A stretch of DNA of 58,087 nucleotides from a virus: positions 1 through 58,087 of the IMG/VR virus record IMGVR_UViG_3300022912_000001; one strand, given 5' to 3'. Position 1 is the stretch's first letter. Each line of letters opens with the position of its first letter. The translations under genes were made by a program, and so were the position numbers. This document shows, one piece after another, positions 3,329 to 48,576 of the stretch. Below the pieces are notes generated by a model. It saw only the letters and a program-made list of their open reading frames with translations, was not told where the DNA came from and searched no databases.

Positions 3329-4133
3329 ACTAAAGCAGAAACAAGTCTTTGCCTATTTTGGGGGCAAACAAGGTGTTGCCTCTAAAATAGTTGCAATGAT
3401 TCCACCCCATACTCATTACATCGAGATGTTTGCAGGAGGGCTTGCGGTTTTCTTCCGTAAGCCCAATGCAACGTGGAGTTGTGTAAATGACTTAAACAAA
3501 GACATAGCAAACCTATATCTCTGCCTATCCATGCCGAAGGTCTTTGCTGAAGTAGCATGGAGACTCAAATGGCTTGTACAGTCAAGAGAGCTTTATGATA
3601 TTGCAGACCGAATGAGAAAAGTTGAAGAATTTAATATACCAAACATTGAACGTGCAACACTATATCTATTCTACATATCTAACTGCTTTAACCAGCGTAT
3701 AGGAACTGGCTTTAGTGACAAGTCCTCTAACTGGAATAGCGGTATAGCTGAACGCTTAATGGAATCACGTAAGAAACTTAACAACACTATAGTTGAAAAC
3801 TTAGACTATGTAAAGCTTGTTGATAAACACAAAGACAAAGAAAACTCATTTTGGTATGTAGACCCACCCTATTGGATAACAGGTAAAGTACCATATTACA
3901 AATTCAACTTTGGCAAAGAAGACCATGAAAAATTAAAAGAACAAATGGATGTACTTGACAAAGCTAATGCAAAGTTCCTAATAAGCTATGATGATATTCC
4001 AGAGATACGAGAACTATACAAAGACTACAATGTTAAACCCTTCATGGTGAGGTACGGTTCAAATAGCGTACTGAAGCAGGAACTCGCAATAAGCAACTAC
4101 GCTTTTGCTGAACAAGAAACCTTGGAGTTGTAA
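3321..4133 (+). CDS. dam: DNA adenine N6-methyltransferase (Dam / D12 class)
   Basis: 270 aa. AYFGGKQGVASKI (11-23) matches the family's N-terminal 'R.Y.GGK' signature, EMFAGG (35-40) is the S-adenosylmethionine site, and WYVDPPYW (178-185) holds catalytic motif IV (DPPY). It transfers a methyl group from AdoMet to adenine N6 in DNA, probably protecting phage DNA from host restriction or marking it. Length is normal for Dam. No cognate endonuclease is recognisable nearby, so it acts as a solitary methylase. Confidence 0.93.
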   Translation: MTELKQKQVFAYFGGKQGVASKIVAMIPPHTHYIEMFAGGLAVFFRKPNATWSCVNDLNKDIANLYLCLSMPKVFAEVAWRLKWLVQSRELYDIADRMRKVEEFNIPNIERATLYLFYISNCFNQRIGTGFSDKSSNWNSGIAERLMESRKKLNNTIVENLDYVKLVDKHKDKENSFWYVDPPYWITGKVPYYKFNFGKEDHEKLKEQMDVLDKANAKFLISYDDIPEIRELYKDYNVKPFMVRYGSNSVLKQELAISNYAFAEQETLEL

Positions 4134-4225
4134 TGAAATATATCAATATTGAAATCGGTACAAACCTCACAATAGTTATACTGTTTGTCATCTTCTTAAT
4201 TGCAGTAATTGTCTACCCATCATGA
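4133..4225 (+). CDS. Very small membrane protein (30 aa)
   Basis: This short ORF fills the gap between dam and the helicase. Its ATG overlaps the dam stop (TAATG), with GGAG just upstream, and its TGA overlaps the helicase start (ATGA). After a polar N-terminus of about 11 residues, residues 12-28 are almost entirely Ile, Val, Leu and Phe, a clear single transmembrane helix. The perfect double coupling is the main argument that it is translated. Function unknown. Confidence 0.6.
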   Translation: MKYINIEIGTNLTIVILFVIFLIAVIVYPS

Positions 4226-5517: not shown

Positions 5518-5912
5518 TGACTGTATCGTATACGTTAGCAATTAAAGATAAAGATGGAAAATATCATAGGCATGAAGTAAGTGCTGAAGTTTATTTATAT
5601 GTTAAACAACTTGAAGCATATATTAAACATCCTAATGATTCTAAATTACCTGAATTTTATGCAGATAGATTTGGATGGATTCCTACGATTACAAGACCAG
5701 TAAATAATGGTATTAAAGCAACTCTTGTAGGTGGGCCATATGATACAGACAAATGTTATGTACTAGATGTTCACTTTTTAATTCCAGTCACTAAGCGAAT
5801 GGAAGAATTACCACGAAAAATGCACTTTTACAAAAGCTTTGGAGAGCTAAGAGATGATTTCTCTGAGACATTTGAATATCAGGGAATAATTGATTGGCCA
5901 TCGAGTAAATAA
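5517..5912 (+). CDS. Hypothetical protein (131 aa)
   Basis: Start overlaps the helicase stop (TAATG). The protein is soluble, rich in Tyr and Lys, with a mixed alpha/beta appearance. I do not recognise a family. Being the last gene before a short gap with repeated GTATACTTAA sequences, it probably ends the helicase transcription unit or is read through into the next. Confidence 0.65.
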   Translation: MTVSYTLAIKDKDGKYHRHEVSAEVYLYVKQLEAYIKHPNDSKLPEFYADRFGWIPTITRPVNNGIKATLVGGPYDTDKCYVLDVHFLIPVTKRMEELPRKMHFYKSFGELRDDFSETFEYQGIIDWPSSK

Positions 5913-5925
5913 TGCTTGTAAGTAT

Positions 5926-5973
5926 AAGTATACTTAATTACATTAGAGGGTTAGCAGTCGCTTGTATACTTAA
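5926..5973 (+). promoter_or_regulatory. Candidate operator pair: AAGTATACTT palindrome and GTATACTTAA repeat
   Basis: The 76-base gap after 5912 holds a perfect 10-base palindrome AAGTATACTT (5926-5935). Its right half extended, GTATACTTAA, is repeated exactly at 5928-5937 and 5964-5973, 36 bases apart. Such spaced sites fit binding of a dimeric regulator or a phage promoter element ahead of the 5989 gene. No convincing sigma70 -35/-10 pair is visible. Function is inferred only. Confidence 0.35.
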
Positions 5974-5988
5974 AAATAAGGTGTCAAT

Positions 5989-6246
5989 ATGACCTCAGAC
6001 CCTGTTTCAGACCTGAAATCGAGAGAATATCGCAGAATAAAGTCCTGGAGGGATGATAACCCCGACAAGATAAGACAGTACAATAGAGAATACTATTTAC
6101 GAAAAAAGAATGGCTTAGTTGAGACTAAACATACAGGCGATGATGCTTGCAGATGCGGAGGAAAACTCATCTTCTCCAGAAAGGTTGGTGATGACTACAT
6201 AATGAAATGTAAAACATGCCTAAAGACTAAGGTTGTAAATGGCTAA
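5989..6246 (+). CDS. Small zinc-ribbon protein with basic helical N-terminus
   Basis: 85 aa. The N-terminal 40 residues are a charged helix (REYRRIKSWRDDNPDKIRQY) like the leader helix seen before many HNH endonuclease cores. The C-terminal half has CRCGG and CKTC pairs (about residues 54-79), a treble-clef or ribbon zinc site. No HNH His-Asn-His triad is present, so a nuclease call is not supported; nucleic-acid binding is the likely role. The start is preceded by a weak AAGGTG site. Confidence 0.7.
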   Translation: MTSDPVSDLKSREYRRIKSWRDDNPDKIRQYNREYYLRKKNGLVETKHTGDDACRCGGKLIFSRKVGDDYIMKCKTCLKTKVVNG

Positions 6247-6466
6247 ATTCTACAGTATAGAAGAAACGAAAGAAGATAAGACTTCAAAAGTATTCACAGA
6301 CATACCACCAATGCGTTTTGAAGAATGGAAACAAATACATCCTAATTATACAACTCATGTAGGGATAGACCCAGCCTCTGAACGTGGCGATGAGTCATGG
6401 GAATTAACTATACTGCAATGTTTAGATACAAGTGTACTATTCGTAAAGAAGGCTAGAAAATTATGA
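6239..6466 (+). CDS. Hypothetical protein (75 aa)
   Basis: Overlaps its upstream neighbour by 8 bases and its downstream neighbour by 4 (ATGA), so it is translationally coupled on both sides. The most distinctive stretch is HVGIDPASERGDESWE near residues 40-55, which superficially resembles the first RNase-H-fold strand 'GiDpg..GD', but the rest of that fold is absent. Cytosolic; no function assigned. Confidence 0.6.
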   Translation: MAKFYSIEETKEDKTSKVFTDIPPMRFEEWKQIHPNYTTHVGIDPASERGDESWELTILQCLDTSVLFVKKARKL

Positions 6467-6966
6467 GAAACATATATATAGGCATTGACAACGGTGTGAC
6501 AGGCTCGATAGGAGTCGTTAGCTCTGATGGTGATGCAATACAGATTAAAACGCCTGTGAAGAAAGAGCAGGATTACATAAAGAGTAAAACTCGAATCATT
6601 AAGCGAATAGACTTTATTGCCCTGTATGAATTTCTCAAACAATTTAAAGATGATGAGACTGTAAAGAATATTACTTGCAGACTTGAGCGACCAATGATAA
6701 ACAATAGATTCTTTCATACAGCCATAAGTGCCGCAAGGTCTATGGAAGCTACAATAAATGTACTAGAACTATTACAGATTCCTTACGACTACATAGATTC
6801 AAAAGAGTGGCAACGATACATGTTCCCAAAGGGAACTAAGGACACAAAAGTTGCCAGCAATACAATAGGGAAGCGGTTCTTTCCTACTGCAAACATACAC
6901 AGCCATGAGGACTTCGATGGAATACTTATTGCTGAGTACATGAAACGAAAGGATAACAATGGATAA
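6463..6966 (+). CDS. ruvC: RuvC-like Holliday-junction resolvase
   Basis: 167 aa with the RNase-H-fold acidic residues of RuvC: IGIDNGVTGSIG (D9, first strand), LERP (E75, second) and EDFDGILIAEY (D150/D152, last helix). SKEWQRYMFP (113-122) is typical of the phage RuvC branch. It should cut branched recombination or replication intermediates before packaging. Length is near the bacterial norm. It sits in the replication operon, overlapping its neighbours by a few bases. Confidence 0.88.
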   Translation: MRNIYIGIDNGVTGSIGVVSSDGDAIQIKTPVKKEQDYIKSKTRIIKRIDFIALYEFLKQFKDDETVKNITCRLERPMINNRFFHTAISAARSMEATINVLELLQIPYDYIDSKEWQRYMFPKGTKDTKVASNTIGKRFFPTANIHSHEDFDGILIAEYMKRKDNNG

Positions 6967-7171
6967 AATTACAGTTGCCCTTGGACAATTTCACAAAAAA
7001 TGTTACGACAGAATGGTATATAAAGAAGATGCAGGTGTAACTGGATGGGATAAGCCTGAAGAAGTTAGTGATGCAGAACTCAAGAAAATTCTAATTGAGA
7101 ACATGCAGGCTGGAGACTTCGTTGACGTTTCTAATATCGCAATGATACTAAACTATAGGCAGAGAATATGA
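6959..7171 (+). CDS. Small phage protein of unknown function (70 aa)
   Basis: Starts inside the end of the resolvase gene. It ends with GDFVDVSNIAMILNYRQRI, which resembles the 'D..DVAN.aMML..R' ending of many short phage proteins of unknown role, and has the GW near residues 28-29 often found in that group. Soluble and acidic. The resemblance is from memory and no activity is implied. Confidence 0.65.
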   Translation: MDKITVALGQFHKKCYDRMVYKEDAGVTGWDKPEEVSDAELKKILIENMQAGDFVDVSNIAMILNYRQRI

Positions 7172-7440
7172 GCAATGACCAAACAGTAGGCAGGATTACA
7201 CAACTAGCAGACAAGCCAGCATTAGAACAAATTGAACAAGAGATTAAAGACTACGGAAAAACAGACCCTAAAATATATGAAAATACTATACCACAACCAC
7301 TAGCAGGATTTGTTAAAATTTCATTTTGTAGAGAATGTGGCTTTACTGGCCCAGAAGAAATCATTGGATGTGTCTGTGAGAATTGTGCAGACGACAAGCT
7401 AATACAAGCCGTACATAGAGGCGATGGGCAAGGTTTTTGA
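7168..7440 (+). CDS. Small zinc-ribbon protein (90 aa)
   Basis: ATGA-coupled to the gene before it. The C-terminal half holds CRECGFTG (about 54-61) and CVCENCADD (about 68-76), a Cys-rich site able to bind one zinc ion. The N-terminal half is helical with no motif. It could be a nucleic-acid-binding or transcription-modulating protein; nothing more specific can be said. Confidence 0.65.
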   Translation: MSNDQTVGRITQLADKPALEQIEQEIKDYGKTDPKIYENTIPQPLAGFVKISFCRECGFTGPEEIIGCVCENCADDKLIQAVHRGDGQGF

Positions 7441-7627
7441 GTACGCAGTAGAGTATGCTTTAGAGTCTGGGAAAGACATTGAAAGCTTTGAAACCTCTGT
7501 TGCATTCAGTCGCCATATCGCACAAAGGTCAAGAGAACTTGAACGAATACCAATAAGAATTAGGAGGACAACACTTGAAGACTTTCATAAAAGACAAAGA
7601 CGGGAACAAGGTAATCCTCCACAATGA
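7424..7627 (+). CDS. Hypothetical basic protein (67 aa)
   Basis: Starts ATG at 7424 within the previous gene's last codons and overlaps the next gene by 53 bases in another frame. It has an acidic, helical first half and a strongly basic C-terminal half rich in Arg (residues 41-63). No known motif. The long overlap makes it slightly less certain than its neighbours. Confidence 0.5.
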   Translation: MGKVFEYAVEYALESGKDIESFETSVAFSRHIAQRSRELERIPIRIRRTTLEDFHKRQRREQGNPPQ

Positions 7628-7958
7628 TGGAATACATTTGAAGCTAAAGGGTGACCCAAGGCTTCGCAAAATCTTCACGTTTAATAGCGGAAGAATAACG
7701 AGAATGGTACCGACTAGCAATATCATGTTGCAAAATCGGGTCAAGGGGGGCATGATAGGGTTTAACTACCATGCCCTTACTTTGATTGCCACATCGGAAC
7801 TACTATCAAAAAAACCTATATTACTATTGATTGGCAAAAATAGATATGAAGTATCAGCAGATGATGTTATCGCAGAGAAGGAATTTCTCCACTTTAAGTC
7901 AGAAGGTGCTGAACTACAATGCTTCTATCCTATACTAAAGATGAATAAAATTAAATGA
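7575..7958 (+). CDS. Hypothetical protein with TTG start (127 aa)
   Basis: A TTG start at 7575 lies 6 bases after TAGGAGGA, one of the strongest ribosome sites in the window, so the rare start is well supported. The product is soluble, beta-rich and basic, with no domain I recognise. It ends in an ATGA overlap with the last gene of the plus-strand block. Confidence 0.65.
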   Translation: MKTFIKDKDGNKVILHNDGIHLKLKGDPRLRKIFTFNSGRITRMVPTSNIMLQNRVKGGMIGFNYHALTLIATSELLSKKPILLLIGKNRYEVSADDVIAEKEFLHFKSEGAELQCFYPILKMNKIK

Positions 7959-8188
7959 CAAGATTCACGTTTATATCAGAAGTGCTATGGGAGAAAAACA
8001 TATCATGGCTATTCAGTATAATATCTATACGCATAAAATCAGATGCTGGCATGCAAAGGATTACAACCCTTGAATTTGCTGGCCTTGTAATACAACTTAC
8101 TTACAGATATAAGTCTGCTTTTGAAATCTCGATAAGAGGATACAAAGAGATTGGTGTGTCTCTTGTATTCCATCTTATTCATCACTAA
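7955..8188 (+). CDS. Hypothetical protein at the end of the plus-strand block (77 aa)
   Basis: ATGA-coupled to the gene before it. It is hydrophobic in patches without a clean transmembrane helix. Its last 14 bases overlap the 3' end of the minus-strand 1183-aa gene, so the two transcription blocks collide here. I see no hairpin-plus-T terminator on either strand at this convergent point, so transcripts may run into each other. Confidence 0.55.
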   Translation: MTRFTFISEVLWEKNISWLFSIISIRIKSDAGMQRITTLEFAGLVIQLTYRYKSAFEISIRGYKEIGVSLVFHLIHH

Positions 8189-11100
8189 AGATTTCATTAT
8201 ATAAGTCAGCACTATCTGTAATTTGGCGGAAGAGCAGTCCGATGAGTGCTGGAGTAGTAAACATTAGTATACTATTCTGAGCATTCTCGGACACTTCCCC
8301 ATACTTTTCATCATCATCATCATATCCCATCATAAACATAGCTGTGAAAGCAGCCATCTTAATTGTCTGAGATAATATTGGAGACTCACCTGAGCGAACA
8401 AGAGTTGAGCCAAAGTTAAACACACTTACCTTCCTGATAATTGTAGATAGCAATGGAACTAGACTTATGAAAGTTGACAGTCCAGATGCTAGAAACCTCG
8501 TATACATTAAACGCAACATAATGACTGCATCGCCATCAATACTTGTATCTGCATTAAACGCTATTTCAGCCTCTTGCTTATTGAAATGCTTATTGTATAA
8601 ATGCTTTAATATTTGCATTTGTGCATTGTGCAACCTCTGTATGCTGTGAGCAGAACTCCTACTACCAGCAAAGAATCCCTTCATAGTGTCAAATTCAAAT
8701 TGTGTTTGCTGTGTCTGATAGCCCTTGTACTGGTTTAGCAGTCTAAATATACCAGAGAATGCCTCACCTAAATGAGCCTCAGTCATTCCAAACATCGTTG
8801 CGTATACAGCCCGCCTTCCTATCTCAATAGCCTGCGGTGAAGTATATACCTCATCCATAGTTTTAAGGTCTTCGGGCTTAACGCCTATCCTTGAAATGAT
8901 ACCCCTGTCAATAGCATCAAAGATGGCCGCTAGTGCAGTCATCTTCCTCATGTTTTTTTCACCGCCTGTGAACGTAAATAGTTCCTTGCCAGGCAAAGAC
9001 TCAAACCACCAAGACAACTTCCATGTTACCATAGCTTTGAACCTATCCTCTGCTATATTGCCAACAAGGGCTTTAAGCCTGCCTGCAACTAACTCCCTAG
9101 AATCCCCTTTTTTGGAAGCGATGAGTTGGTGAAGCATCTTCCTCGCATAGCGAATATCCTGCTTTTTGTCGCCATGATATTTTTCCTGTATCCTTGCCAA
9201 TAGTGCATCTACTGACTTTTTCTTCCTGTCACTAAATTTACCATTGACAAAATCACTTTGACTCAGCTTTGCAAGTCTAGCCCAGTCTATCATTGTAAGC
9301 GATGGAATGTTTGTGCCTGGGATGTTAGGCGTGTCAAATGGGTCTATAGTAGAATCAGATAACAGATAGTGTTCAAAGGCTGACAGCATATTTTCAACAC
9401 CCATTTGCGCAACCCTATCATCCCAAACTTTACGCTCTTCAACAGTACCTGAATTAATAGATGACCATGCCTCACCTATCGGCTTCATCCCATAACGAAT
9501 ATAGTTGTTGAGAATCTGTGTATTATTGCCTAATGCACCCTTTGCGCCCAATACACGCATTGATACTGCGCCAGCCATAGTCAGAATTAACTTCCTTGCA
9601 GAATAGGCATCGTATGTAGAGCCACCAGTAAAGGCTTTAGGCAATTTATTTAATAGGTTTGCGACCCATATATAGTTGCCCTTGTCTTTGTTCTTACCTA
9701 ACAACCCTCTAATGCTTGGGTCGCCAAGTGTCTGCCTAACCTTCATCTCTGCATAGTCAACTACATTGTGGTTCACACCAGCCTTAGTCATGTTAAATTT
9801 AGACTCTAATAATTTCAGGGTAAGCTCATTGTTGAATTGTTGGGTAAGAGCACCCTTCATATAGTCAGACACAACATTCGCACCCTTACGCCTTTTCAGC
9901 GGGTCAGTCCATGACACTCTTGACTTAAATGAATTAATTTGCTTATTGAGGATGGTTGAATTTACAGTCTTCCCGTCATCACTACCGCTTGACCTCTCCG
10001 AGTTATATGTTCTGAGTTTTTGTATATGTGCTCTACTCTCTTTGAGTTTTTTGAATTGCTTTATATGTGCGGCCTTCTCTTCGGCAGTAAACTCAGATGT
10101 GTCAAATCTTGCGTTAGTATCCATCTGATTCTGAATACTGAGGATTTCCTTATCCATCATTTCATCAAGAACTTCACCCCTGTAACTGCGTGGAAAATAA
10201 TTCTCACGAATATAACTAAACCATGAGTTGCCAGTCTTTATACGGCCATGTCTATCACGATATACGCGATTCATGACATCGCCAGAATATAGCACATCGT
10301 TTATCCATTCATCTACATCAGTCGTAGTGCCGTTCTTCTTATCCTCTTCTGCTAACCATGCTTCTATACTATCTGCTACATTGTTAAGCTTTTGCTCTGT
10401 AATCTCATTCCTTCTTGCAGTTTCTTCTGCAAACGTTCTCAAGTCACTACGCTTGATTGCAAGTGCCTCATAGAACTCTTGTGTGAATATGCCCTTGTTT
10501 ACATCTGGCATTAGAGTGAATTTCTTATATACTGGATATTGGTTTCCATCATGAGTCTTTATATATGAAACATAGTCTGAACGATAATAGCCGTCAGCTG
10601 GCATCTCTTTGATATGAGTATTCCCACTATCTACAAGACTATGCCATTTCCCATCTGCCTCATCCTGCTCACTTACAATGTATGCATCTCCATTGCCAAC
10701 AGCATCCTTGTCCTCAATTATTACATACATGTAGTTCGTTGTGCCAATTCTAATATACTGCTTTTTACTATTCTTATCTTTATCATCTAACAGTTTACGA
10801 AACTCAGCATCATCCCTAAAGTCATCCTCAAGTCTATTGAATCTTCTGAACTTTAGCTTCTTCACTTGCCCATCAAGTATTTCCTGAGTGAATACGGCAG
10901 ATACCATAAGGGCTAATTTTTCCTTATATATCTTGTCTGTGAGGTTTGTCTCACCTGCTGTATGCCACTTCTTGTCAGTCCACATATACTCCCTGCGACC
11001 GCCAACTATACGCATATCTATAATTCGTATATCTTTATTTGCCCTGTTTTGGTTATGCATTGGGCCAAGTCCAAGATTGCCGATATTCAAAGCGTTGTCA

Positions 11101-11726
11101 GCAATCATCCCATTCAATACTTTTGTAAGCTCTGCTTCTGAGGCATTGATATTAGCCATGTACTTAAAGAAGTGTTGGTTAATAATATCAGGTGTGTCCA
11201 TAGCTAAACGCACAAGCTTCTGAGCTATACCTGACTTATCCCAGTTAAACATAACAACAGCAGGGCGACCTAAAGCTCTGTCTAATAGTGGAATATCACC
11301 CTTGCCTCCATTAGCGGCTAACGCCTTTGCAACCTTGCCATTCCTGTTCTTAATTGTCTTGTCTACTATCTTGACTAAAGCCATTGCCCTGCGTGGCCCA
11401 TTAATAACTGTTTCAGGGTTAATGCTTTGGCCGCCTGTGAACCTTGTCAACTCCTCATTCCACCCAGTAACAAGGTCTTCGATGATAGTGGTGTCATATT
11501 CCCTGAATGAGCCGACTTCTGTAATGTCAGTCACAAGCATATTGTTCAATACTCTTGCAAACTTCAGTCTCGCTGCTTCATTGCCAGTAGCGGCCTTCAC
11601 ATCAGCTTCAGTAACATTGCCTACCATCCTATTGACATGAGCCTTTGCCATCATTATATATGAATTTCTTGCAATATTCTCTAAAGACTTGTCGCGGTTG
11701 CTGTTTTTACTACACGTTGTTGCCAT
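8175..11726 (-). CDS. Large virion/ejection-type protein (1183 aa)
   Basis: The last gene of the late block, 2 bases after the 2782-aa gene. It is mostly helical and charged, with hydrophobic stretches near the C-terminus (about residues 1070-1165, including FLASGLSTFISLVPLLSTII) and an acidic DDDDE cluster before its end. Size and position match internal virion or ejection proteins of podoviruses, which enter the cell with DNA. I recognise no enzymatic motif. It may be the structural partner of the polymerase-like protein encoded just upstream (inference). Confidence 0.8.
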   Translation of the reverse strand: MATTCSKNSNRDKSLENIARNSYIMMAKAHVNRMVGNVTEADVKAATGNEAARLKFARVLNNMLVTDITEVGSFREYDTTIIEDLVTGWNEELTRFTGGQSINPETVINGPRRAMALVKIVDKTIKNRNGKVAKALAANGGKGDIPLLDRALGRPAVVMFNWDKSGIAQKLVRLAMDTPDIINQHFFKYMANINASEAELTKVLNGMIADNALNIGNLGLGPMHNQNRANKDIRIIDMRIVGGRREYMWTDKKWHTAGETNLTDKIYKEKLALMVSAVFTQEILDGQVKKLKFRRFNRLEDDFRDDAEFRKLLDDKDKNSKKQYIRIGTTNYMYVIIEDKDAVGNGDAYIVSEQDEADGKWHSLVDSGNTHIKEMPADGYYRSDYVSYIKTHDGNQYPVYKKFTLMPDVNKGIFTQEFYEALAIKRSDLRTFAEETARRNEITEQKLNNVADSIEAWLAEEDKKNGTTTDVDEWINDVLYSGDVMNRVYRDRHGRIKTGNSWFSYIRENYFPRSYRGEVLDEMMDKEILSIQNQMDTNARFDTSEFTAEEKAAHIKQFKKLKESRAHIQKLRTYNSERSSGSDDGKTVNSTILNKQINSFKSRVSWTDPLKRRKGANVVSDYMKGALTQQFNNELTLKLLESKFNMTKAGVNHNVVDYAEMKVRQTLGDPSIRGLLGKNKDKGNYIWVANLLNKLPKAFTGGSTYDAYSARKLILTMAGAVSMRVLGAKGALGNNTQILNNYIRYGMKPIGEAWSSINSGTVEERKVWDDRVAQMGVENMLSAFEHYLLSDSTIDPFDTPNIPGTNIPSLTMIDWARLAKLSQSDFVNGKFSDRKKKSVDALLARIQEKYHGDKKQDIRYARKMLHQLIASKKGDSRELVAGRLKALVGNIAEDRFKAMVTWKLSWWFESLPGKELFTFTGGEKNMRKMTALAAIFDAIDRGIISRIGVKPEDLKTMDEVYTSPQAIEIGRRAVYATMFGMTEAHLGEAFSGIFRLLNQYKGYQTQQTQFEFDTMKGFFAGSRSSAHSIQRLHNAQMQILKHLYNKHFNKQEAEIAFNADTSIDGDAVIMLRLMYTRFLASGLSTFISLVPLLSTIIRKVSVFNFGSTLVRSGESPILSQTIKMAAFTAMFMMGYDDDDEKYGEVSENAQNSILMFTTPALIGLLFRQITDSADLYNEIFSDE

Positions 11727-11728
11727 GA

Positions 11729-14700
11729 TTACACCTTACACTTATTATAATATTCATCAACCCTCTTAGACAAAGCCTCTCTTATGGCTTCCCTACCCTC
11801 AACTGTTGCAATAGCCTGTTGTATAGACTTAAACCTCCAGCCCCTTAATTGGGTATATGCATCATATATCTTCTGTGACTTCATTGTATCTGCTGGCTCT
11901 ATCAATTCATAGCCATGCTCTTCAACCATTGTCTCTATAGTTTGAGTAACATCACCATCAAACTTAACTAAGTTATTAAGAGCTTGCTGTCGTATCATTC
12001 CATACATTTGATATATCTTATTATGTTGGAACCTTACTGGGAATAGCTTTTGGAAGTCAACTTTATTCGTAGCCTTCCCTTCCTTATTCCTTGTATCTAA
12101 TGAAGTTAGCGAGTGTAGCGTAGCAATCATTTTCTGTGTATCTGTTAATGCATTCCACACAACACCAGCATCCTCAAACAACTTAGCAAAGCGGTCATTC
12201 TTGTCTATTTTCACCTTATCTGGGTCGCCAGTCTCATCAATAACTTTCATGTACTGAGAGTTAAAACCATCTGCCCAGAGAACTGCTTCGGCTAGTTCTG
12301 CATCTGTAATTCTATCACCTTCTGTAAGTGTATTATATACATCAACAAGTGCCTGCCCTGCAATGACATGAGCCGCTGTATTCATTCTTGGAGTCCAATG
12401 CAATGGGTCATATTTAAGATTGCCATTGTCTAGCTTAGATGCTTCCTCTCCGAACTTAGCAATCATTGATTCAATAGGGCTGAGTGATGGGTTGCCCATT
12501 TCAATGCTAGTCTTTTTATAATACCCACTATTTATCTTAGCAGTATAGTCTCCATCAAGCCTGTTTATAGTTTTAAGGAACTGTTCCATTTGGTCATCAA
12601 GTTGCTGTTGAAAATGCTCAGGTTCTGCATTGTATAAGTCATTCAGACTCTCAGCCATAGATACAAGGTCATTAAAGTTAAGCTGGTTGCCGCCAAGCTT
12701 ACCCTGTCTACGACCTATTTGGTTTAGGAACTTCATAGCGAACCCGCTAATTGCCTTCCTGTCCTTGTCGCCAGTCTCACTATCGTCTACTGGAAACTCT
12801 TCCGCAAACATAAGGTCTTCGATATAATTTGCAGGTAGTTTGGATAGTAAGCCAAATTTAGCATCATCTGTAGCGGCCTGTGTCAGTATTGAATATACAT
12901 GCTCTACTGTAGTTTTTAAATATACAGGGTTGTCAAGTTTGCGCAATTCTTCAACTGTAGTAAACTCAACTTCGTTACCATCAACAAGGTCATCAACTAT
13001 AATATCACCCTGAGCTATAATATACTTCTGTATGTCCTCATTACTAAGGTACTCAACGTCAAGTGGGATTGGGAATACTTCATTAGGTGCAAACGTTCCT
13101 TCTATTGGCTCACCATCTTCATCATATTCTCTTTCGTGAGGTTCTTTCATTGTGTACGTTCTGCCATTGACAGTAATTTTCACCTGTTTGTATGATAGAG
13201 ACTTGTGCAATGATGCCTGAGTCACAACTATACCAACTGCATTTTCCGCTACATCTTGATTCTGAATAACTTGCTTCATGTCGCTGTTTATCAAAAGGTT
13301 ATTCGAGCCAATCTTATCTAGCTTCCTGCTGAATAGCTCAAGCCGTAATAGCTTGTCTCTCCATTTCTTATCTACGCTCTTGCCCTCAAAAGCATCACGA
13401 TAAGCCTGGAGATAACCACTCTCAACATCCTCAGTCCTGAAGAAGTCATAGTAGCCCTTGTCACCATCCCAGTCACCCTCAAAGATTTCAGTAATGTCAG
13501 CCCATGTGTGAAATACATTTGAGCCTGCACCGAATCTGAATGGAGCAAGCTTAAAGGGTCTTGCAGTAGTCCATCTATTAACTGGCTGTCTTGAGGCTAA
13601 TACATAAACCTCTCCACCATCTGTAATCCACTTGTTAATTATTTCAACTCTAGCCTTTAATGGTTGAGCATTAAATTCTCTGAGTGTAATATCTTTGTCT
13701 AGCAGATAGTGCTTAACTGCCTGGTTCAATGCAGACTTGTTATCAACACCAAAGGCAACTTCCCCATCCTTAACTTCATCGGAGAATATGTCTGGCTGAT
13801 AGTATGCTTGAGTCTGCGAACCATCATTCCTTCGCCCCTTAAAGATATTGTTCTTGATATACTTGTTTGCAAGGTAATCAAGCATTAACGGCATGTTTGT
13901 AGGATGAGACAGCATTGAGCCTGTAGGGTCTTTAATTAATACCTGTTGTAATTCTGTAGGTATCTCTCCATCCTCAAGTGTCCTGTTGATTTCAGCCTTC
14001 ATAACAGCAGGATTTGACAACAATTCAAACAACACGCCTGAATGCTTAACAACATTAAGATTGTTATTCTCTATAATTGCATCTACAAGCGCATCTATAT
14101 GTTCATCCTGAAACCTTGTGGACATCATCTCTGCGGCCGCATATGGAAAAGCTGAAGTAGTTGTTGACTTGTTTCCGTTTGTAGTCAGTAGCTTAACATC
14201 ATTTTCATCTAGCTCATGTATTTCATACATAGCATCGAATCTACCATTGGTATTCTTTGCCTCATTCGGAGATGCAATCCTGTCGAACCGCTTGCCTCCT
14301 GCCATGAAATAAGTGCCGTCTTTAGCCTTGCCTGTAGTAGCAATAACAGTACCATCTGGGCGTTTAAATACCAAACCTTCAGGCAGTACAAACTCAGCAT
14401 GCTTCATACCTAAGTAGTCAGTAATGCCAGGCTTACTCAGCTCATGCTTGCCATTGTCATCCCTGTGGTTAATAACAGTTTTAGCATATGCTAAATTATG
14501 ACCATCGCCAGTACGCTTATACCCAAATACTTCAGCATAGGCATTCATTAAGCCGCCTGATGTAAGGGTGGCACCATCAATCTTACTGTACTCAACCTCC
14601 CTGCCGTTTGGCATCACAATAATAGTATCTTCAGGAACTATCATAATTGTATTTGTAACAGCAGTATTCTCTATATACTTATTGAGTCCAACAGGTGTCT

Positions 14701-17700
14701 TGCCCTCAGTCATATCAATACGCAAGCGGTTGAAAAAGTCTTCAATACCCTTCCACTTGCCAGGCATTAGATACTGTCTATGTCGAGTCTCTTTAGCCCA
14801 CTCATGCACACCTATAACCTGCATTAAGGCATAAGGATTCTTCTTCAATAGCGGTAAATTAGCTTCATAGATTTGGTCTGCCATTACAACTGGAATAGTC
14901 CCATCCTCAACTTCAGCATCTATGTATGCTCGATATGTTTCCTTCTGTGTTTCTATAAACTCAAGATAGTTAGCTCTCGTTACATTCTTATCAAAGGGAA
15001 CTTCAACTGAGGCAAATGTAAGTTGACTACCATCACCACCCTTAGTTGCCGCAATAGTATATAGCTTGTCGAAAGCACCGCTCTGAAAGCTCTTTGCGAA
15101 TTGCTTGTTAAGTTCATCTACAAGGGATACTGTTATGCCATCTGCATTCTTCTTGAAGAAGTTATATTTGCTCTCATCTTCGCCAACCTTTTCATCAAAG
15201 ATGTGCTCCAGTAGGTCATTCTTAGATATTGAATGGGTCTCAATTTTAAGCTTACTGTTCAGCTTCCTGCGCCTCTCTAGGAAGTTCTCGCTGACCATTA
15301 GGGCTAATAGCTTATCTGCCGCTTTATCCCATAGTCTACCCTTAACTTCAGGATGCTCTTGCTTGCGCTGAATAGTTTGAAATTCACCAGCTTTGTCAAA
15401 TATCACTTCCCACATTGTGCGTAGGATGCCTTGATTGTTTTCTGTAGTATAATACTCTGTAGCTGAAATTTTACCTGCAAACATCTGTTTCAATGAGTTC
15501 TCGAACTTGTCACTAAATTTATTCCAGTTTTCAATCTTAGATTTTGGTATTCTATCCTTAAAGCCTTCATATCTAATTTCTGTACCATCTTCATTGGACC
15601 CAAGACTCCTACCTTTCTCTCCGAACTTGCGAAAGTTATTAATAAATGTAGTGACATTCGGGCTTTCCCTGATAACGTCAACAAGCATTGCATACTCTTC
15701 GCCAGTGAAGTTTACGCCTATCTCACTAAGGAATACAACAGCATCATTACCGCCTGTACCTACTGCAATATTATTAACGTCTGAGTTTTCTTCTGTGTTC
15801 TTAGAGTAGGCAACACCATCATAATATGATTCTACCGTTTTAAGGTCTGCATTGTAGAACATCTCTCCAAGTAAGTCGCCTGTAGCATCTACATTGCCTA
15901 GAAAGCCCTTAACTGCCTGTACAAACTTCTTTAGCCAGTTACGCATCAGGTTCTTTTCGTATGTACCCTCACGCATCTTGTTTGTATAGTATTCGCCTAT
16001 CTTCTGTACAAGTGCTTCTTCTGCCTGCTTCTGTGTCATACCAGGCTTTCTGTAGCGTTTGAGACCAAGCTTGACAGCGTATGTATCACGCATCATTGAA
16101 ACCCAGATATGTGCGAACTCATGAGGAATGGTGTCAATAGTACCTTGCTCACTAATAGTAATCATATCACGAACTGCCATGCCGAATGCCTCAATGCCAT
16201 TGGCTTGAATTAGCTCTTCAATTATCTCTACCTTAACATTCGGGAACTGCTCATGTAAACGCTTGAGCATCTTAGCTGATAGTGACTGGTCATCCTTTAC
16301 AAGCGTTTCATTTTCAGTTATGGATTCTTTGAAAACATGGTCATCATTGCTTGTCTTGTTGTTACCATCAGGCGTATCGAAAAAGTCATCAACATCTTCT
16401 TTAGTTGGAGTTGTATCTTCTTTAATATCCTCTGCAAGTAATTGTTCAAGCCCCTTATCTTCTCTATATTCTTGTATAAACTGTTCGTCAACAACTCTAT
16501 CTTGGTGCCTTTCAGCTAAAGCTTTCCTAACCCTAATAGCAACAGTTGGGTCTGATTGTGCCGCCATCAATACTGCATTTTGCAAGCTTGTAGATACTCT
16601 TGCATTCATGTTTTTCCCAGTAACACGATACCTTCCATCATCAAGCCTTATAAGCGTTACGTCTGATTTTGATATACGGTCATTGTCAACTTTTGCCTGC
16701 TCAATAAATTCATTAAGAAATTCTACTGCTTCATCATCAGTATATCTATTAGTTTTCTTATTGAAATAATTACCGTGGCGAGTAAAGTCCTCTATCTCTT
16801 TTTCAATTGGAGTAAGTGATTCACGTCTAGCTCTTTCAGCAGCCAGTTTCTCGCGTGCAGTAAGCTTAGTCTCCTGAGTTGGCTTAGTTGCTTTAGTACC
16901 AAGAGCTTTTGCTAGTGTTACATCGCTTAGTCTTGTCCCTCTTGTCTTTGTACGATTGCCCTTTTCGTCAACCCTGTATTCATCAACGAACAGCATGTCT
17001 GACACTCTATTTGGAGTGCTTGTTACAACATAGACATTACCATCAACGCCAGTAAACTCATCTCCCTGAACAAAGTCCTGAATAACACTTTTACCTTCCC
17101 TGCCTGTAGTCTCTTGAGTAGTCTTTGTAGCTTGAGTAGGTGCGGTAGCTTTCGTTGCTTCTCGCTTAGTATTGATAGCCTCAACAATACTGTCCATGTT
17201 ACCAGTATATTTAACGCCTTCATCTTTGGCAAGTTTTACGAGTTCATCTCTATTCTTGAACTGCTCTTTAGTAACAGGTTCAGTGGCTTGAGTTGGTGCT
17301 GTAGCTTCAGCCTTATCAAACATAGTTGGAAGACCACGAACATATTCAGCTTCTATGATTTGCGAAAAGTCATCACTCTCAATTAACTGCTCATCAGTAA
17401 CCCCATACGGGCTTTCTTCATCTAACAGTTTATCATAGTTATCAATAAGTGCGTTTGCCTCTGAGCTAGTAAAACCTGCTTTTGTAAGTGTCTCATGGAC
17501 ATATTCTTCCTTAATATTATCCATAAGATAAGTAATGGCATTTTCTTCAGCATATTCCTCTTCAGCATCTTGGTTATCTTTTTTATTCTCCTTTGATACC
17601 AACTCTCTTACTCTATTAAGCTTTGACCTGAGTACATTCTTAGCACCCTCAACAGTACCATCTGATTCTGCGATAGGCGTTTCCTGCTGTTGCTGTTCAG

Positions 17701-20077
17701 CCTCCCTCGCTGCTTTAGCTGCTTTGAGTTGCGCGAGCTTTGAACCACTACCTGCAACTGGAGTAGCATTATCATCTGCCTCTTGGTTACCATCTGCCGT
17801 AGCATTATCTGTAGCCTGAGAGTCGTTAGCAACCTGAGAATTTGTAGTAGGCTGACTTCCTGTAGCTGGCCTTCTGCCAGTAAGTTTTTGATTCTTTCCC
17901 TTATTCTGCCCTGGAACATAAGGTGCTTTATCTGCCTTATTAAATGTTGTTGAGAATTGCTCTGCTGGAGTTTTTGGAGTAGTAGTATTGTGAGCGTTCA
18001 TTAGGAACGTATTGCTTGCGGCTACCAACGATTCCTGAGTTTTTACATCAACATAGTCTGCAAGCTGTGCTTTCGTAAGGGCAGTTGTATTCCCATCCTC
18101 AGTCCTTGCAAAATATCCAACATCGTTACCTACCCTGCCAACACCAATATCTATACTTGTCCCCTCTTCATTAACAACAGTTACAGATACTTCGCTTTCG
18201 CCAAGGTTTGTAGATACAGTTTTAATATTCTCGTTATTCTTCGCAACACGATTCTGCTCACTAACATCAACAGTATTTGTTTCTGTGCTGACTTCAGGGG
18301 CAACTACAACTGGAGCTTCTTGAGCCTTCTTAGCCTTCGCTGTCTCTTCATTAATACGAGCTATTAATTCTGGCTTGTAGCCACTATCATCAATACCCAT
18401 TGCCTGTGCATGCTCTTGAAGTTCAGCCTTATTCATCTTGCCTATAGGCTTGCTAGGCTCGACTATCTTTACTGTAGGCTCTTCTTTAGGTGTAGGTGTA
18501 GGTGTCTCAGCCTGAGTTTCAGGAGGTGTTGTAGTCGTAGCCTCTGCTGTCTCATCCTCTATCTCCTGCGCCTCACGCTTATGACGAGCTAAAGCCTCAG
18601 CCTTCGTTTCACCACGCTCACTTTGCTGACCACGCTTAACTGGAGTCATCTCACCTTCGGCAGTCATCTCACCATCTGCTGACATGCCATCAGAAGTCAT
18701 ACCGCTATCTGGGGTCATGCCTTCAGTAAATGCATCACCGCCAGTATTGCTAGTACCCTTCAACAGTTCTTCTTGTTGCTCTGGAGTTAAGTCCTCACCT
18801 AGTTGTTCATATGCATTCTTTAAAATCTTTTCAGGGTCTAGCTCTTTTTTGCCGCCAGACCTATCGGGAGTATTCCTAAGAAGTGAAGTTGGCCCAGTAA
18901 TAGCGGCACCAGTTAATAAACCGCCAAAGAATGACTCCCTTGCCTCTGGAGACCAAGCCTCACGCTTCCATGCCTCTGAGAAATTCCTGAATGCCTCTTC
19001 AGGGGAGTCTCCCCATCCCTCTTTATAGGGAACCTGAACTGCAACCTGCGCCATATACTGCAACCACTCAGTAGTACCTTCCTCTGCGGCTTGCTTTAAG
19101 CCGTCTTGAGTAAGATGGCCAGCCTTTCGTATCACAGCAGATGTACTTTTTGCAAATAGCTTTGCACCCTCCCTTTTTGTCTCGTTGAGGATGCCTGCCT
19201 TTTTGAGCATTCCTGCCATTGGCATATACTCAAAACCCCCAGAAACAAGACCATATATCATTGCAGACGGCCCAGCCGCTTTTGCTGCTTCTTCAACAGA
19301 CTGACCCTCTTCATCTACAAGATATGACATTGCCTCATTGTACTGACTTGAGCCTTCAAGCATTGTCATCCCAGCCATAGATGTTCTCTGCGCAATAGTA
19401 TCTAGTGTCAGGTCGCGTGTAGCTTTCTTAGCCGCTTCTTCAAAGCCTTCTTTAGTCATCTCTTCGCCAGACTTAGCAATCCTAAGTAATGCAAGCTTCC
19501 TGCCTTTTTCAGAGACAACCTTAGCCATTGTTTTTCCAGAGGCTTTCGTCAGTAGTGAACCGATACCTTTTGACGTTACAGCTATAGCTGCCATTTCTAC
19601 GATAGATGGAAGTGATGATGCTAGAGTTCGCGAAAGCATATCTAGTTGCCAGAAGTTATCGAAACCTATAGGTTGGTCTGCCTGCCACTCAATGAGAGCT
19701 TGTAATTCAATATCGTTTGCAATCTGCTTGCGAGTTTCTTCCTCGCCTTTAAGTTGCAATTCTCTAGCATAGTTTGAGATTACATTGTTGGGGTCTAGGC
19801 CGAGAGCACCAGCTACATAGCCAGCTATACCTACGTTACCTGAGATGAATGAGTCCATGTGTTGACCCATGTTGAACATGAATTGGTCTATGAAGTTAGG
19901 GGCTGCTTCACTACCTGATTGCTCGTAGGCTGTTTTGCCTGCGGAGTATGACTGTTGATTCTTTTCATTTTCAAAGTAAGACTTCATTACTCTGTCTACG
20001 TCATCTGGCGTGAAACTTACATTATCTTCTTTGTAGCCGGAGATAATCCTATCGCGGACGTATTGTTCTGATGGCAT
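11729..20077 (-). CDS. Giant polyvalent virion protein with zincin and RNA-polymerase-like (DxDGD) modules (2782 aa)
   Basis: At 8.3 kb this is 14% of the genome. Visible parts: an N-terminal helical region with hydrophobic segments (1-400); Thr/Pro/Glu-rich linkers; SAP-like segments at about 543-583 and 940-973; a zincin site HEFAH (1319-1323) with a downstream Glu pair (1353-1354); and a polymerase-like core. The core has IDGATLTSGG (D1834), K1866 and K1892 in two lysine-bearing strands, ASRQP (R2163, P2165) and GDWDGDKG (D2202, D2204, D2206). The order DG...S, K, K, RxP, DxDGD(K) is that of two-barrel RNA polymerases (QDE-1, YonO, crAss-like phage polymerases). The late-block position suggests it is packaged and injected to transcribe early genes (inference). 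Translation follows an AGAGG site. Confidence 0.85.
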   Translation of the reverse strand: MPSEQYVRDRIISGYKEDNVSFTPDDVDRVMKSYFENEKNQQSYSAGKTAYEQSGSEAAPNFIDQFMFNMGQHMDSFISGNVGIAGYVAGALGLDPNNVISNYARELQLKGEEETRKQIANDIELQALIEWQADQPIGFDNFWQLDMLSRTLASSLPSIVEMAAIAVTSKGIGSLLTKASGKTMAKVVSEKGRKLALLRIAKSGEEMTKEGFEEAAKKATRDLTLDTIAQRTSMAGMTMLEGSSQYNEAMSYLVDEEGQSVEEAAKAAGPSAMIYGLVSGGFEYMPMAGMLKKAGILNETKREGAKLFAKSTSAVIRKAGHLTQDGLKQAAEEGTTEWLQYMAQVAVQVPYKEGWGDSPEEAFRNFSEAWKREAWSPEARESFFGGLLTGAAITGPTSLLRNTPDRSGGKKELDPEKILKNAYEQLGEDLTPEQQEELLKGTSNTGGDAFTEGMTPDSGMTSDGMSADGEMTAEGEMTPVKRGQQSERGETKAEALARHKREAQEIEDETAEATTTTPPETQAETPTPTPKEEPTVKIVEPSKPIGKMNKAELQEHAQAMGIDDSGYKPELIARINEETAKAKKAQEAPVVVAPEVSTETNTVDVSEQNRVAKNNENIKTVSTNLGESEVSVTVVNEEGTSIDIGVGRVGNDVGYFARTEDGNTTALTKAQLADYVDVKTQESLVAASNTFLMNAHNTTTPKTPAEQFSTTFNKADKAPYVPGQNKGKNQKLTGRRPATGSQPTTNSQVANDSQATDNATADGNQEADDNATPVAGSGSKLAQLKAAKAAREAEQQQQETPIAESDGTVEGAKNVLRSKLNRVRELVSKENKKDNQDAEEEYAEENAITYLMDNIKEEYVHETLTKAGFTSSEANALIDNYDKLLDEESPYGVTDEQLIESDDFSQIIEAEYVRGLPTMFDKAEATAPTQATEPVTKEQFKNRDELVKLAKDEGVKYTGNMDSIVEAINTKREATKATAPTQATKTTQETTGREGKSVIQDFVQGDEFTGVDGNVYVVTSTPNRVSDMLFVDEYRVDEKGNRTKTRGTRLSDVTLAKALGTKATKPTQETKLTAREKLAAERARRESLTPIEKEIEDFTRHGNYFNKKTNRYTDDEAVEFLNEFIEQAKVDNDRISKSDVTLIRLDDGRYRVTGKNMNARVSTSLQNAVLMAAQSDPTVAIRVRKALAERHQDRVVDEQFIQEYREDKGLEQLLAEDIKEDTTPTKEDVDDFFDTPDGNNKTSNDDHVFKESITENETLVKDDQSLSAKMLKRLHEQFPNVKVEIIEELIQANGIEAFGMAVRDMITISEQGTIDTIPHEFAHIWVSMMRDTYAVKLGLKRYRKPGMTQKQAEEALVQKIGEYYTNKMREGTYEKNLMRNWLKKFVQAVKGFLGNVDATGDLLGEMFYNADLKTVESYYDGVAYSKNTEENSDVNNIAVGTGGNDAVVFLSEIGVNFTGEEYAMLVDVIRESPNVTTFINNFRKFGEKGRSLGSNEDGTEIRYEGFKDRIPKSKIENWNKFSDKFENSLKQMFAGKISATEYYTTENNQGILRTMWEVIFDKAGEFQTIQRKQEHPEVKGRLWDKAADKLLALMVSENFLERRRKLNSKLKIETHSISKNDLLEHIFDEKVGEDESKYNFFKKNADGITVSLVDELNKQFAKSFQSGAFDKLYTIAATKGGDGSQLTFASVEVPFDKNVTRANYLEFIETQKETYRAYIDAEVEDGTIPVVMADQIYEANLPLLKKNPYALMQVIGVHEWAKETRHRQYLMPGKWKGIEDFFNRLRIDMTEGKTPVGLNKYIENTAVTNTIMIVPEDTIIVMPNGREVEYSKIDGATLTSGGLMNAYAEVFGYKRTGDGHNLAYAKTVINHRDDNGKHELSKPGITDYLGMKHAEFVLPEGLVFKRPDGTVIATTGKAKDGTYFMAGGKRFDRIASPNEAKNTNGRFDAMYEIHELDENDVKLLTTNGNKSTTTSAFPYAAAEMMSTRFQDEHIDALVDAIIENNNLNVVKHSGVLFELLSNPAVMKAEINRTLEDGEIPTELQQVLIKDPTGSMLSHPTNMPLMLDYLANKYIKNNIFKGRRNDGSQTQAYYQPDIFSDEVKDGEVAFGVDNKSALNQAVKHYLLDKDITLREFNAQPLKARVEIINKWITDGGEVYVLASRQPVNRWTTARPFKLAPFRFGAGSNVFHTWADITEIFEGDWDGDKGYYDFFRTEDVESGYLQAYRDAFEGKSVDKKWRDKLLRLELFSRKLDKIGSNNLLINSDMKQVIQNQDVAENAVGIVVTQASLHKSLSYKQVKITVNGRTYTMKEPHEREYDEDGEPIEGTFAPNEVFPIPLDVEYLSNEDIQKYIIAQGDIIVDDLVDGNEVEFTTVEELRKLDNPVYLKTTVEHVYSILTQAATDDAKFGLLSKLPANYIEDLMFAEEFPVDDSETGDKDRKAISGFAMKFLNQIGRRQGKLGGNQLNFNDLVSMAESLNDLYNAEPEHFQQQLDDQMEQFLKTINRLDGDYTAKINSGYYKKTSIEMGNPSLSPIESMIAKFGEEASKLDNGNLKYDPLHWTPRMNTAAHVIAGQALVDVYNTLTEGDRITDAELAEAVLWADGFNSQYMKVIDETGDPDKVKIDKNDRFAKLFEDAGVVWNALTDTQKMIATLHSLTSLDTRNKEGKATNKVDFQKLFPVRFQHNKIYQMYGMIRQQALNNLVKFDGDVTQTIETMVEEHGYELIEPADTMKSQKIYDAYTQLRGWRFKSIQQAIATVEGREAIREALSKRVDEYYNKCKV

Positions 20078-20092: not shown

Positions 20093-22501
20093 TTACATTG
20101 TTATTCCACTCCGAGCTAACCTCTCTAGGTCAGCATCAGATAATTCTTTTGTCTTGCCCTGCATTAAGGCTTCATCTATTCGGTCAACGCCAGTAAACTT
20201 TCCTGCATTGACTTCACGCCAATTCATAAGGTCTGTTTCCTTGACCCTCCTTGTGAACTCAATAAATTGCTTGACTTCAGCCATAGAGGTAATTTTGACT
20301 TCATGCATCTGGGCTTTAAACTTTTCATCTTTCCATAATTTCTCTGCCGCAACATCATCCGTTGAGGATGAAATGGTCTCCATTAGCAAATTGAATACTG
20401 GGTCGCCCTTACTCTTTGCAAGTTTATTATACTTAGTTTCAAGTGCCTTAGCATCTTCTCTTGTAATGGAACTATTTTTGTCAGCAACAAGGTTGTCAGT
20501 TTTTGTGGCTTCACGCTTTGATATTTCTTCTTTGCTAAGAGACTTTAATTCCTTAGTCTTTGCCATGCGCTCTTCTACAGTCTCATGCTTACCAAACTCG
20601 TCTATAAGATTTTCTTGACCTTCAAGATATTTGTTTTTGTCTGGCTTTTGAATGCCAGCATTAGCTGAACGTGTCTCTCTGTCCTGCTTACGCTTCAGGG
20701 TCTGTATTTGATTCTTCCAATGTTTCTCAATACGCTCTTCGCTATTCTTCTTCTGAATAGCACTCATATCAGGCTTTGGCCCAAATTCAGCAATAGCCTT
20801 ATCCATGCTAATTTTAAATTCAGCCTGCCCAGCTGGCTCTAGTTCTGCAAGTTTTGCCTTCTGAGATTTAGATTCTTTTGGAGTCCATGAGAAGTTTTTA
20901 ATTGCATCAAAAAGACTATCTCTCAATACCTTTGCTTCTGCCTCAGATGCAGTCTTGCCTGACATTATACCGCTTGCAATACTGCTTGCGCTACCAGGTT
21001 CAGATTCTTTTTCTCTTGCTACTATTGAATTAAAGGTAGCATCTGCTTTTTCTGCATCGCCATACTTTTCCTGCAAGGCTTTATACTCTTCATTCTCATC
21101 CAGCTTGGCTTTCACATCATCTGTTGATGCATTATAAGCCTCTAAAATCCTATTGTATTCAGCACGACCCTTTGCAAAGTCGGCAGATGATTCATCAGGT
21201 AATGCATTTGTTGCAGTATCTTTATCGCTATCGCCAGTGCCGTCACTATCTTTTCTTCTCTGTGCATCAATAGCATCATTAGTAGCCTTGCGTTCCTGTG
21301 CTTGCGCACTTGACTTTCCATTCATTGGATTCCAATAGTCCTCGATAACCTCAGTAAGTTTCTCAACTTCCCTTGGCTGAAGTCTGCTGTTATAGAATTT
21401 ATCTCTGTACTTATTGACTGCCGCACCAGGATTCTCAGCATTTAACATTTCAAGTGCCTGTTCTTTTGTGAAGTCTGGCTGATTCCCAAGCTCAGTATTA
21501 CGCATAACACCAAGAACCATATTTACAGTATTCGACTTGAAGTTGCCAACACTACCCTTCGCTGAACCAGTCTCGATAGTGTCTCTGGCAATCTTATTCC
21601 ATGTAATAGCACTTGAGTCTTTATCATCATCAGGAGGAAGTCTAAAACCACCTCTCCTGTTGTAGCCATGAGATTGAACAAGTGCACCTGAAAGGATGCC
21701 ATTATTTGCGTCTTCAGCTTTCTGCAACTCTGTAATATTCTCAAGCTGTAGTTTTGCCGTCTCTGCATCAGCTTTATTAATAGCAGCTTCATCCTTTGCA
21801 ATCCCAGCTTTCAAACCCTTAATTCCGAGAGCCGCTATTTCATCAGCATTCTCAAGTTTAAGTCTTGTAGCTTGAGCATCAGCGGCCGCTTCAGCATATC
21901 CTGGAGCATTCTTAGTAAAGTTATCTTTAATGTATTGAAGTTCGCGCTCATCAAAATCAGATACTTCAGCAAAAGCTTTAAATTCTTCGTCAGACATTGC
22001 AAAGTTCTTGTCTGTATCTGCCCCTGCAAACATTGCTTCTGTACCTCTATCAATAGCCGCAAACCTAGCTTCATTTGCATACAAGGCATCATTGGCTTGT
22101 GCTAAATCATCAATAAAGGCAATTAACTCATTCTTGCTTGCCTCATCATTTTTATAGCCCTGTTTTACAAGTTCAATATAACCCTTTGTATATTTATCGC
22201 CAGAGCCAGCATCTTCAATGGCGATACCCTTTAATTCCTGTGCTTCAAGTCTTTGCTTGTATGTATTGATTGACTCATCAATTTCTTTGAGTACAAGTTT
22301 ATGTGCAAACTGGTTTTCTTCATACTCACGGGCAGAATCAATTCTTGCTGTTTCATACTCCCTATTTAAAGCCGCTTGAGTTTCCTGTGAGGTAATTCTC
22401 TGGCTTTGCAGTTCAGCATTAGTAGGCTTAAACAACTGGCCAACCTGTGATATGCCACCTGTAATAGCTCTTATTAAGTCTGCATCACTTTGTCGTGCCA
22501 T
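20093..22501 (-). CDS. Ejection-type internal virion protein, coiled-coil (802 aa)
   Basis: Almost wholly helical and highly charged, with long Lys/Glu/Ala coiled-coil stretches throughout and very few aromatic residues. There is no signal peptide or transmembrane helix. Gene order (nozzle-like protein, then small and large helical proteins, then giants) matches podoviral ejection proteins that form the trans-envelope channel. It overlaps the upstream gene's stop by one base. The role is inferred from context; no catalytic motif seen. Confidence 0.75.
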   Translation of the reverse strand: MARQSDADLIRAITGGISQVGQLFKPTNAELQSQRITSQETQAALNREYETARIDSAREYEENQFAHKLVLKEIDESINTYKQRLEAQELKGIAIEDAGSGDKYTKGYIELVKQGYKNDEASKNELIAFIDDLAQANDALYANEARFAAIDRGTEAMFAGADTDKNFAMSDEEFKAFAEVSDFDERELQYIKDNFTKNAPGYAEAAADAQATRLKLENADEIAALGIKGLKAGIAKDEAAINKADAETAKLQLENITELQKAEDANNGILSGALVQSHGYNRRGGFRLPPDDDKDSSAITWNKIARDTIETGSAKGSVGNFKSNTVNMVLGVMRNTELGNQPDFTKEQALEMLNAENPGAAVNKYRDKFYNSRLQPREVEKLTEVIEDYWNPMNGKSSAQAQERKATNDAIDAQRRKDSDGTGDSDKDTATNALPDESSADFAKGRAEYNRILEAYNASTDDVKAKLDENEEYKALQEKYGDAEKADATFNSIVAREKESEPGSASSIASGIMSGKTASEAEAKVLRDSLFDAIKNFSWTPKESKSQKAKLAELEPAGQAEFKISMDKAIAEFGPKPDMSAIQKKNSEERIEKHWKNQIQTLKRKQDRETRSANAGIQKPDKNKYLEGQENLIDEFGKHETVEERMAKTKELKSLSKEEISKREATKTDNLVADKNSSITREDAKALETKYNKLAKSKGDPVFNLLMETISSSTDDVAAEKLWKDEKFKAQMHEVKITSMAEVKQFIEFTRRVKETDLMNWREVNAGKFTGVDRIDEALMQGKTKELSDADLERLARSGITM

Positions 22502-47272: not shown

Positions 47273-47278
47273 GTATAC

Positions 47279-47308: not shown

Positions 47309-47324
47309 GATATTTCCTATACCA

Positions 47325-48564: not shown

Positions 48565-48576
48565 AGACTTGTCAAG

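Follow-up and report, generated by a model that had tools for sequence, protein, structure and literature searches.

The question raised by this locus is whether a phage that is not recognisably crAss-like carries, within a giant late protein, an RNA polymerase (RNAP) built on two beta-barrels, and whether such an enzyme could be injected to transcribe the early genes. The stretch analysed (hereafter the window) comprises 58,087 nucleotides, positions 1 to 58,087 of the IMG/VR record IMGVR_UViG_3300022912_000001. The contig has a 92 bp terminal direct repeat and is therefore probably a complete genome of ~58 kb. The protein in question, P0001, is 2782 amino acids (aa) long and is encoded on the (−) strand at 11729–20077. 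The original prediction had recognised polymerase motifs in the interval 13440–14600, and every residue it named was found in place in this open reading frame (ORF). The beta-like barrel contains IDGATLTSGG, starting at residue 1833 (14552–14581, with D1834 and G1835), and the lysines K1866 (14480–14482) and K1892 (14402–14404). They are followed by ASRQP, residues 2161–2165 (13583–13597), which corresponds to the R.P that precedes the beta' triad, and by GDWDGDKG, residues 2201–2208 (13454–13477), with the presumed catalytic triad D2202/D2204/D2206. Only the motifs fall within the predicted interval; the polymerase module as a conserved unit, delimited by alignments A3 and A4, AlphaFold2 (AF2) and Foldseek, is wider and occupies residues ~1660–2440 (12758–15100). 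The D.DGD string has one further occurrence in the window, in a small virion ORF lacking the remaining motifs.

Scans of IMG/VR with P0001 as a single protein yielded no relatives, and neither did a genome-contig scan. At the DNA level, a search of IMG/VR with the triad region retrieved 42 stretches, seven of them true relatives and 35 located in unrelated short ORFs; the triad string by itself is therefore not diagnostic. Further relatives were obtained in alignment searches with the polymerase core and, independently, with a zincin domain present in the same protein. The closest relative, L049, lies on a 59-kb contig and is 35% identical in the polymerase half. The triad, R2163, P2165, D1834, G1835, K1866 and K1892 are invariant throughout a set of 14 sequences. 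Adding five sequences found solely through the zincin domain gave a set of 19, in which P0001 and its 13 closest relatives have the triad DWDGD, and the five additional members have DNDGD, DSDGD, DGDGD (twice) and DYDGD. Only 15 of the 701 core columns are invariant in this set, and they include D1834, K1866, K1892, R2163, P2165, D2202, D2204 and D2206. The hypergeometric probability of finding the eight named residues among these columns is 5e-15. For the remaining five it is 3e-10, the triad being omitted from this test because 'GDWDG' had served to find part of the set. Judged from these alignments, the full motif constellation is not a product of chance. The protein thus displays marks of the two-barrel superfamily: a DxDxD triad preceded by R.P and invariant in homologues, and two conserved lysines with an acidic residue (K1866, K1892 and D1834) in the beta-like barrel.

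Structure prediction agrees with this assignment. The AF2 model of residues 1600–2782 reached a mean predicted local distance difference test (pLDDT) of 69 and a predicted template modelling score (pTM) of 0.64; the model of residues 1740–2440, based on the 19 sequences, reached a pLDDT of 80 and a pTM of 0.78. In Foldseek comparisons with PDB, QDE-1 and 6VR4 lead for both models. The best 15 matches of the core model are QDE-1 (expectation value (E) 2e-7, alignments of ~500 columns) and 6VR4, the virion polymerase of the crAss-like phage phi14:2 (E 2e-5), followed by archaeal RNAP, plant RDR2, Pol I and plastid, bacterial and AR9 RNAPs. All the 50 matches listed are RNAPs with a two-barrel active site, and no other fold appears among them. 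A pair of double-psi beta-barrels sharing an active site is accordingly indicated, the barrel topology being taken from the fold match, and as far as fold matching allows there is no sign of missing barrels or of a triad set apart from the lysines. A long helix predicted in both AF2 models (residues 2264–2297, 13187–13288) lies ~60 residues past the triad, where a bridge helix is expected, and may represent it. With the named residues coinciding with the invariant ones and the predicted core matching QDE-1, 6VR4 and then the cellular enzymes, the reading of P0001 as a two-barrel RNAP is strongly supported.

Sequence libraries give little hint of this function. Searches of Pfam, PHROGs and PDB sequences with P0001 or its alignments left the polymerase region unrecognised, apart from marginal matches to entries named RNAP. 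Nor does P0001 look N4-like: Pfam shows no match to a T7-type family, and in the list of fold matches the RNAPs are of the two-barrel kind. Among 50,697 public phage records, the sole match was to the zincin-like segment 1267–1404 and came from the human-gut contig MT835645. With TAG read as Q, it encodes a crAss-like giant protein of 5334 aa with the polymerase signature YRVPTQG...GADFDIDKLF near its C-terminal end; its polymerase part matches 6VR4, and the ORF with the zincin match directly follows it. In the comparison with viral predicted structures, unnamed proteins rank highest (E down to 2e-34), and after them come crAss-like proteins and an 'RNA dependent RNA polymerase' of Podoviridae sp. 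ctxqo3. Related proteins have therefore already been deposited, mostly without a function. No description of the P0001 polymerase family was found in the literature, within open-licence papers.

The relation to the crAss virion RNAP (vRNAP) was addressed by profile comparison with hhalign, in which reversed-sequence controls scored at most 0.3. The P0001 family aligns with the group L062/63/64/66/70 at a probability of 100 (E 4e-43), in register with D1834, G1835, K1866, K1892, R2163, P2165 and the triad. It also aligns with a second group, L079–L083 (probability 96.2, E 2.5e-9), in register at R, P, the triad and K1866, with D1834 and K1892 lacking identical partner residues. This second group in turn matches the crAss vRNAP (probability 99.4, E 9e-22), RVP...DADHDGDK lying over YRVP...GADFDIDK. 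Similarity to the crAss enzymes thus failed as a direct match but held through two intermediate groups, and by sequence L079–L083 stand between the P0001 family and the crAss vRNAP. Through them, K1866 aligns with a crAss RNAP lysine (YDKTA in L002). The equation of IDGATLTSGG with crAss LDSSTKSGG was rejected: D1834 pairs with crAss TDATTWIS, via N in the bridge sequence L079. Members of the L079–L083 group are giant proteins of 2980–4347 aa on contigs of 26–71 kb, with triads D[AS]DHDGDK or NADNDGD(S). A crAss-type RNAP (DYDID) was also noted outside Crassvirales in the 88 kb genome of Flavobacterium phage FpV4 (Fipvunavirus, L048), where the protein is annotated merely as a virion structural protein.

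By terminase and portal the window phage itself is not crAss-like, as had been proposed. Crassvirales are characterised by a crAss-type terminase and portal and by genomes of ~90–105 kb; here the genome is 58 kb, and the matches listed for large terminase (TerL), which comprise all but 23 weaker records, and for portal in public phage records are all below 25% identity, none of them named crAss-like. Both proteins are shared instead with an uncultured group, on contigs of mostly 35–60 kb, at 44–57% identity for TerL and 37–47% for portal. Among 18 related contigs tested, TerL was matched in 11 and portal in 10; for contigs with a P0001-type polymerase the figures are 10/13 and 9/13, and the contig of L063, from the first intermediate group, adds one of each. 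No match was obtained on the contigs of L062 (23 kb) and L070 (22.6 kb) or on the three L079–83-type contigs tested; several contigs are fragments. By these sequence comparisons, the phages sharing TerL and portal form a coherent uncultured group, and since the polymerase gene occurs across it, it resembles a core gene. The contig IMGVR_UViG_3300030329_001359 (111,116 bp, L050) has two TerL and two portal matches ~60 kb apart and probably represents either a concatemer or the joining of two related phage genomes.

The gene for P0001 starts 15 bp past the preceding late gene, within a long (−) run of head, tail and lysis genes. The (+) strand carries the early genes (DnaB helicase, Rad52-like protein, exonuclease, dUTPase and others); its longest ORF is 431 aa, which leaves no space on that strand for a second single-chain RNAP. 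Several effector-type domains and an HExxH domain in one late protein are the mark of polyvalent injected proteins with a zincin domain, the class of Iyer et al. 2017. P0001 shows this combination, with a conserved HExxH and a SAP-like motif, and a relative carries an AlkB-like oxygenase and a PIF1/RecD-like helicase. It is likely, in our estimation, that P0001 is a multidomain ejection protein with a single-chain DNA-dependent two-barrel RNAP, carried in the particle and injected to transcribe the early genes. The protein would be made late, packaged in the particle, possibly processed by its zincin domain, and injected with or ahead of the DNA. It would then transcribe the early (+) genes from ~48.3 kb on, before the host RNAP takes over, the beta-like barrel contributing D1834, K1866 and K1892 and the beta'-like barrel R2163, P2165 and the metal-binding triad. 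Packaging, injection, early-gene transcription, the enzymatic activity and proteolytic processing are what we infer; the first three fit the position of the gene in the late operon, the HExxH domain fused to the polymerase, the precedents of crAss, N4 and P23-45 and the lack of another polymerase-sized early ORF.

Several observations weigh against this scheme. The evidence for packaging and injection consists of gene position and architecture. The zincin at its usual place is absent or replaced in the closest relative L049, and zincin processing is therefore not universally required. Compared directly by hhalign, the P0001 family and crAss RNAPs show no significant similarity (probability 2.8), and no convincing early promoter motif common with the relatives L104 and L105 was found. 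The template modelling (TM) scores to QDE-1 and 6VR4 are moderate, at 0.34–0.45 of query length; such values are expected of remote homologues and are no proof of activity.

Given that packaging is deduced, P0001 might be a genuine two-barrel RNAP that is not injected but is made late to transcribe late genes or to make primers, its virion-gene neighbourhood being incidental. Phage P23-45 does have a non-virion two-barrel RNAP (PMC10770324). We regard this as rather improbable for P0001, since the same chain also contains an N-terminal region and a zincin of the kind typical for injected multidomain proteins (PMC5512222), and expression from a late virion operon would come too late for early or middle genes. 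Less probable still is a two-barrel fold with another nucleotidyl-transfer role, namely QDE-1-like RNA-dependent RNA synthesis or a function like that of DNA polymerase D (PolD). The closest solved folds are those of QDE-1, which copies both RNA and DNA, but archaeal PolD is absent among the fold matches listed, the chain of homology ends at the DNA-dependent crAss vRNAP, and the genome is that of a double-stranded DNA tailed phage with a DnaB helicase and recombination genes. That the motifs are a chance resemblance within a structural or toxin-like giant protein could be imagined from the GDWDGDK string in many unrelated ORFs and from the failure of sequence libraries to recognise P0001; the invariance of the whole constellation and the fold match contradict it, and we give it hardly any credence. 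An injected, early-transcribing two-barrel RNAP accordingly remains the preferred reading.

Two-barrel virion polymerases are already known, and the strategy extends beyond crAss-like phages to P23-45 and phiKZ-like phages. New here is a distinct polymerase family that sequence libraries miss and that belongs to an uncultured lineage possessing a head module of its own, together with intermediates that tie it to crAss. The chances seem about even that a wider picture holds: an uncultured lineage of ~55–60 kb phages would use an injected two-barrel RNAP with DxDGD as its sole phage-encoded RNAP, as part of a continuum of giant virion polymerases to which the crAss vRNAP also belongs. Two-barrel virion transcription would then be a widespread ancestral or repeatedly exchanged module and not a crAss speciality. 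Two-barrel virion RNAPs are known from few phage groups, in families so diverged that sequence libraries overlook them; the P0001 family adds a conserved polymerase gene of an uncultured phage group and intermediate sequences to the crAss enzyme. These may help to trace the evolution of single-chain RNAPs and to locate early promoters in uncultured phages, and P0001-type phages are predicted to begin transcription without the host RNAP.

Outside the polymerase module, P0001 comprises an N-terminal region (residues 1–480, 18638–20077), a SAP-like DNA-binding motif just under the Pfam cut-off (18347–18445), the zincin-like metallopeptidase domain with H1319-E1320-x-x-H1323 (15866–16279) and a C-terminal region. 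The N-terminal region, a candidate for ejection or packaging, is kept in L049 and partly in other relatives. The middle section of the giant protein is variable, and extra domains are found there in relatives. In L052 (giant protein at 3803–13270), an AlkB-like 2OG-Fe(II) oxygenase (residues ~854–985) and a PIF1/RecD-like helicase (~1101–1590) separate the N-terminal region from the zincin; at this position L051 has a DUF7831 domain. L049 (giant ORF at 6029–16993) has another HExxH segment, LHEATH, further upstream at residue 829.

The next gene, for P0002 (1183 aa, 8175–11726, (−) strand), begins 2 bp after P0001. Its homologue lies directly downstream of the RNAP gene in the relatives of alignment A3 with sufficient flank, and in L049 the counterparts of P0001 and P0002 are fused as a single protein. 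Homology of P0002 to crAss gp65/gp49 was not detectable. Upstream of P0001 and in one tight (−) operon with it, 20093–24404 encodes three proteins (802, 162 and 471 aa) that, by position, are candidate ejection or internal virion proteins; the portal and TerL, the head module of the phage group, are encoded at 40635–44695 (−).

The divergent, AT-rich segment that precedes the early (+) operon (47110–48294) is, speculatively, a candidate early promoter region. It contains two exact copies of the 14 bp AATTTGTTTAAAAA (47563–47576 and 47604–47617), 41 bp apart, with no other exact copy in the genome. As an established promoter this repeat was dropped, not being found in the two relatives L104 and L105. 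Sigma-70-type sites number 55 in the early half versus 33 ± 5 in shuffles, a weak and unspecific excess. The ribosome-binding stretch AAAGGAGAGCAA is common to three early genes (48281–49254 of the window), and a Shine–Dalgarno-like string precedes 26 of 46 starts, which is not decisive for the host.

Compared with known systems, P0001 shares with the crAss vRNAP (phi14:2 gp66, 6VR4) a single-chain two-barrel fold with the beta-like barrel before the beta'-like one, the R.P before the triad, a giant virion-type protein with a large adjoining partner and, in some members, a zincin in or beside it; the zincin domain upstream of the P0001 polymerase resembles the one in MT835645. It differs in the triad, which is DFD[IV]D in crAss enzymes (DYDID in Fipvunavirus) and DWDGD in P0001, with DxDGD in relatives, so that by sequence the P0001 family keeps the cellular-type triad, unlike the crAss-like enzymes examined. 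Direct profile similarity is also lacking, P0002 is not detectably related to gp65, and the window phage is smaller than crAss-like phages, with no crAss-like TerL or portal match among those listed. QDE-1 and SPbeta YonO are single-chain two-barrel enzymes with a DxDGD triad. QDE-1, one of the eukaryotic RNA interference polymerases, provides the best Foldseek matches to the P0001 core (E 2e-7) with no match at the sequence level, and YonO is set beside P0001 by description only; unlike P0001, QDE-1 and YonO are not fused to virion or zincin regions.

The gp96 protein of Thermus phage P23-45 is a two-barrel vRNAP with a DFDGD triad, in a giant virion protein with a metallopeptidase domain, for which no similarity in sequence to known RNAPs was detected (PMC10770324). 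Its likeness to P0001 is one of description; P23-45 differs in being a siphophage with an extremely long tail, in having the RNAP at the tape-measure N-terminus and in encoding a second, non-virion RNAP. The vRNAP of the short-tailed phage N4 (Schitoviridae) is a giant ejected protein combining RNAP, HExxH and N- and C-terminal ejection parts (PMC12633501, PMC5512222), and P0001 has the same layout of N-terminal region, HExxH domain, polymerase and C-terminal region, with partner proteins in the operon. The N4 catalytic domain, however, is T7-like (palm) and not two-barrel, and N4 needs two phage RNAPs; the layout common to N4 and P0001 would therefore be convergent.
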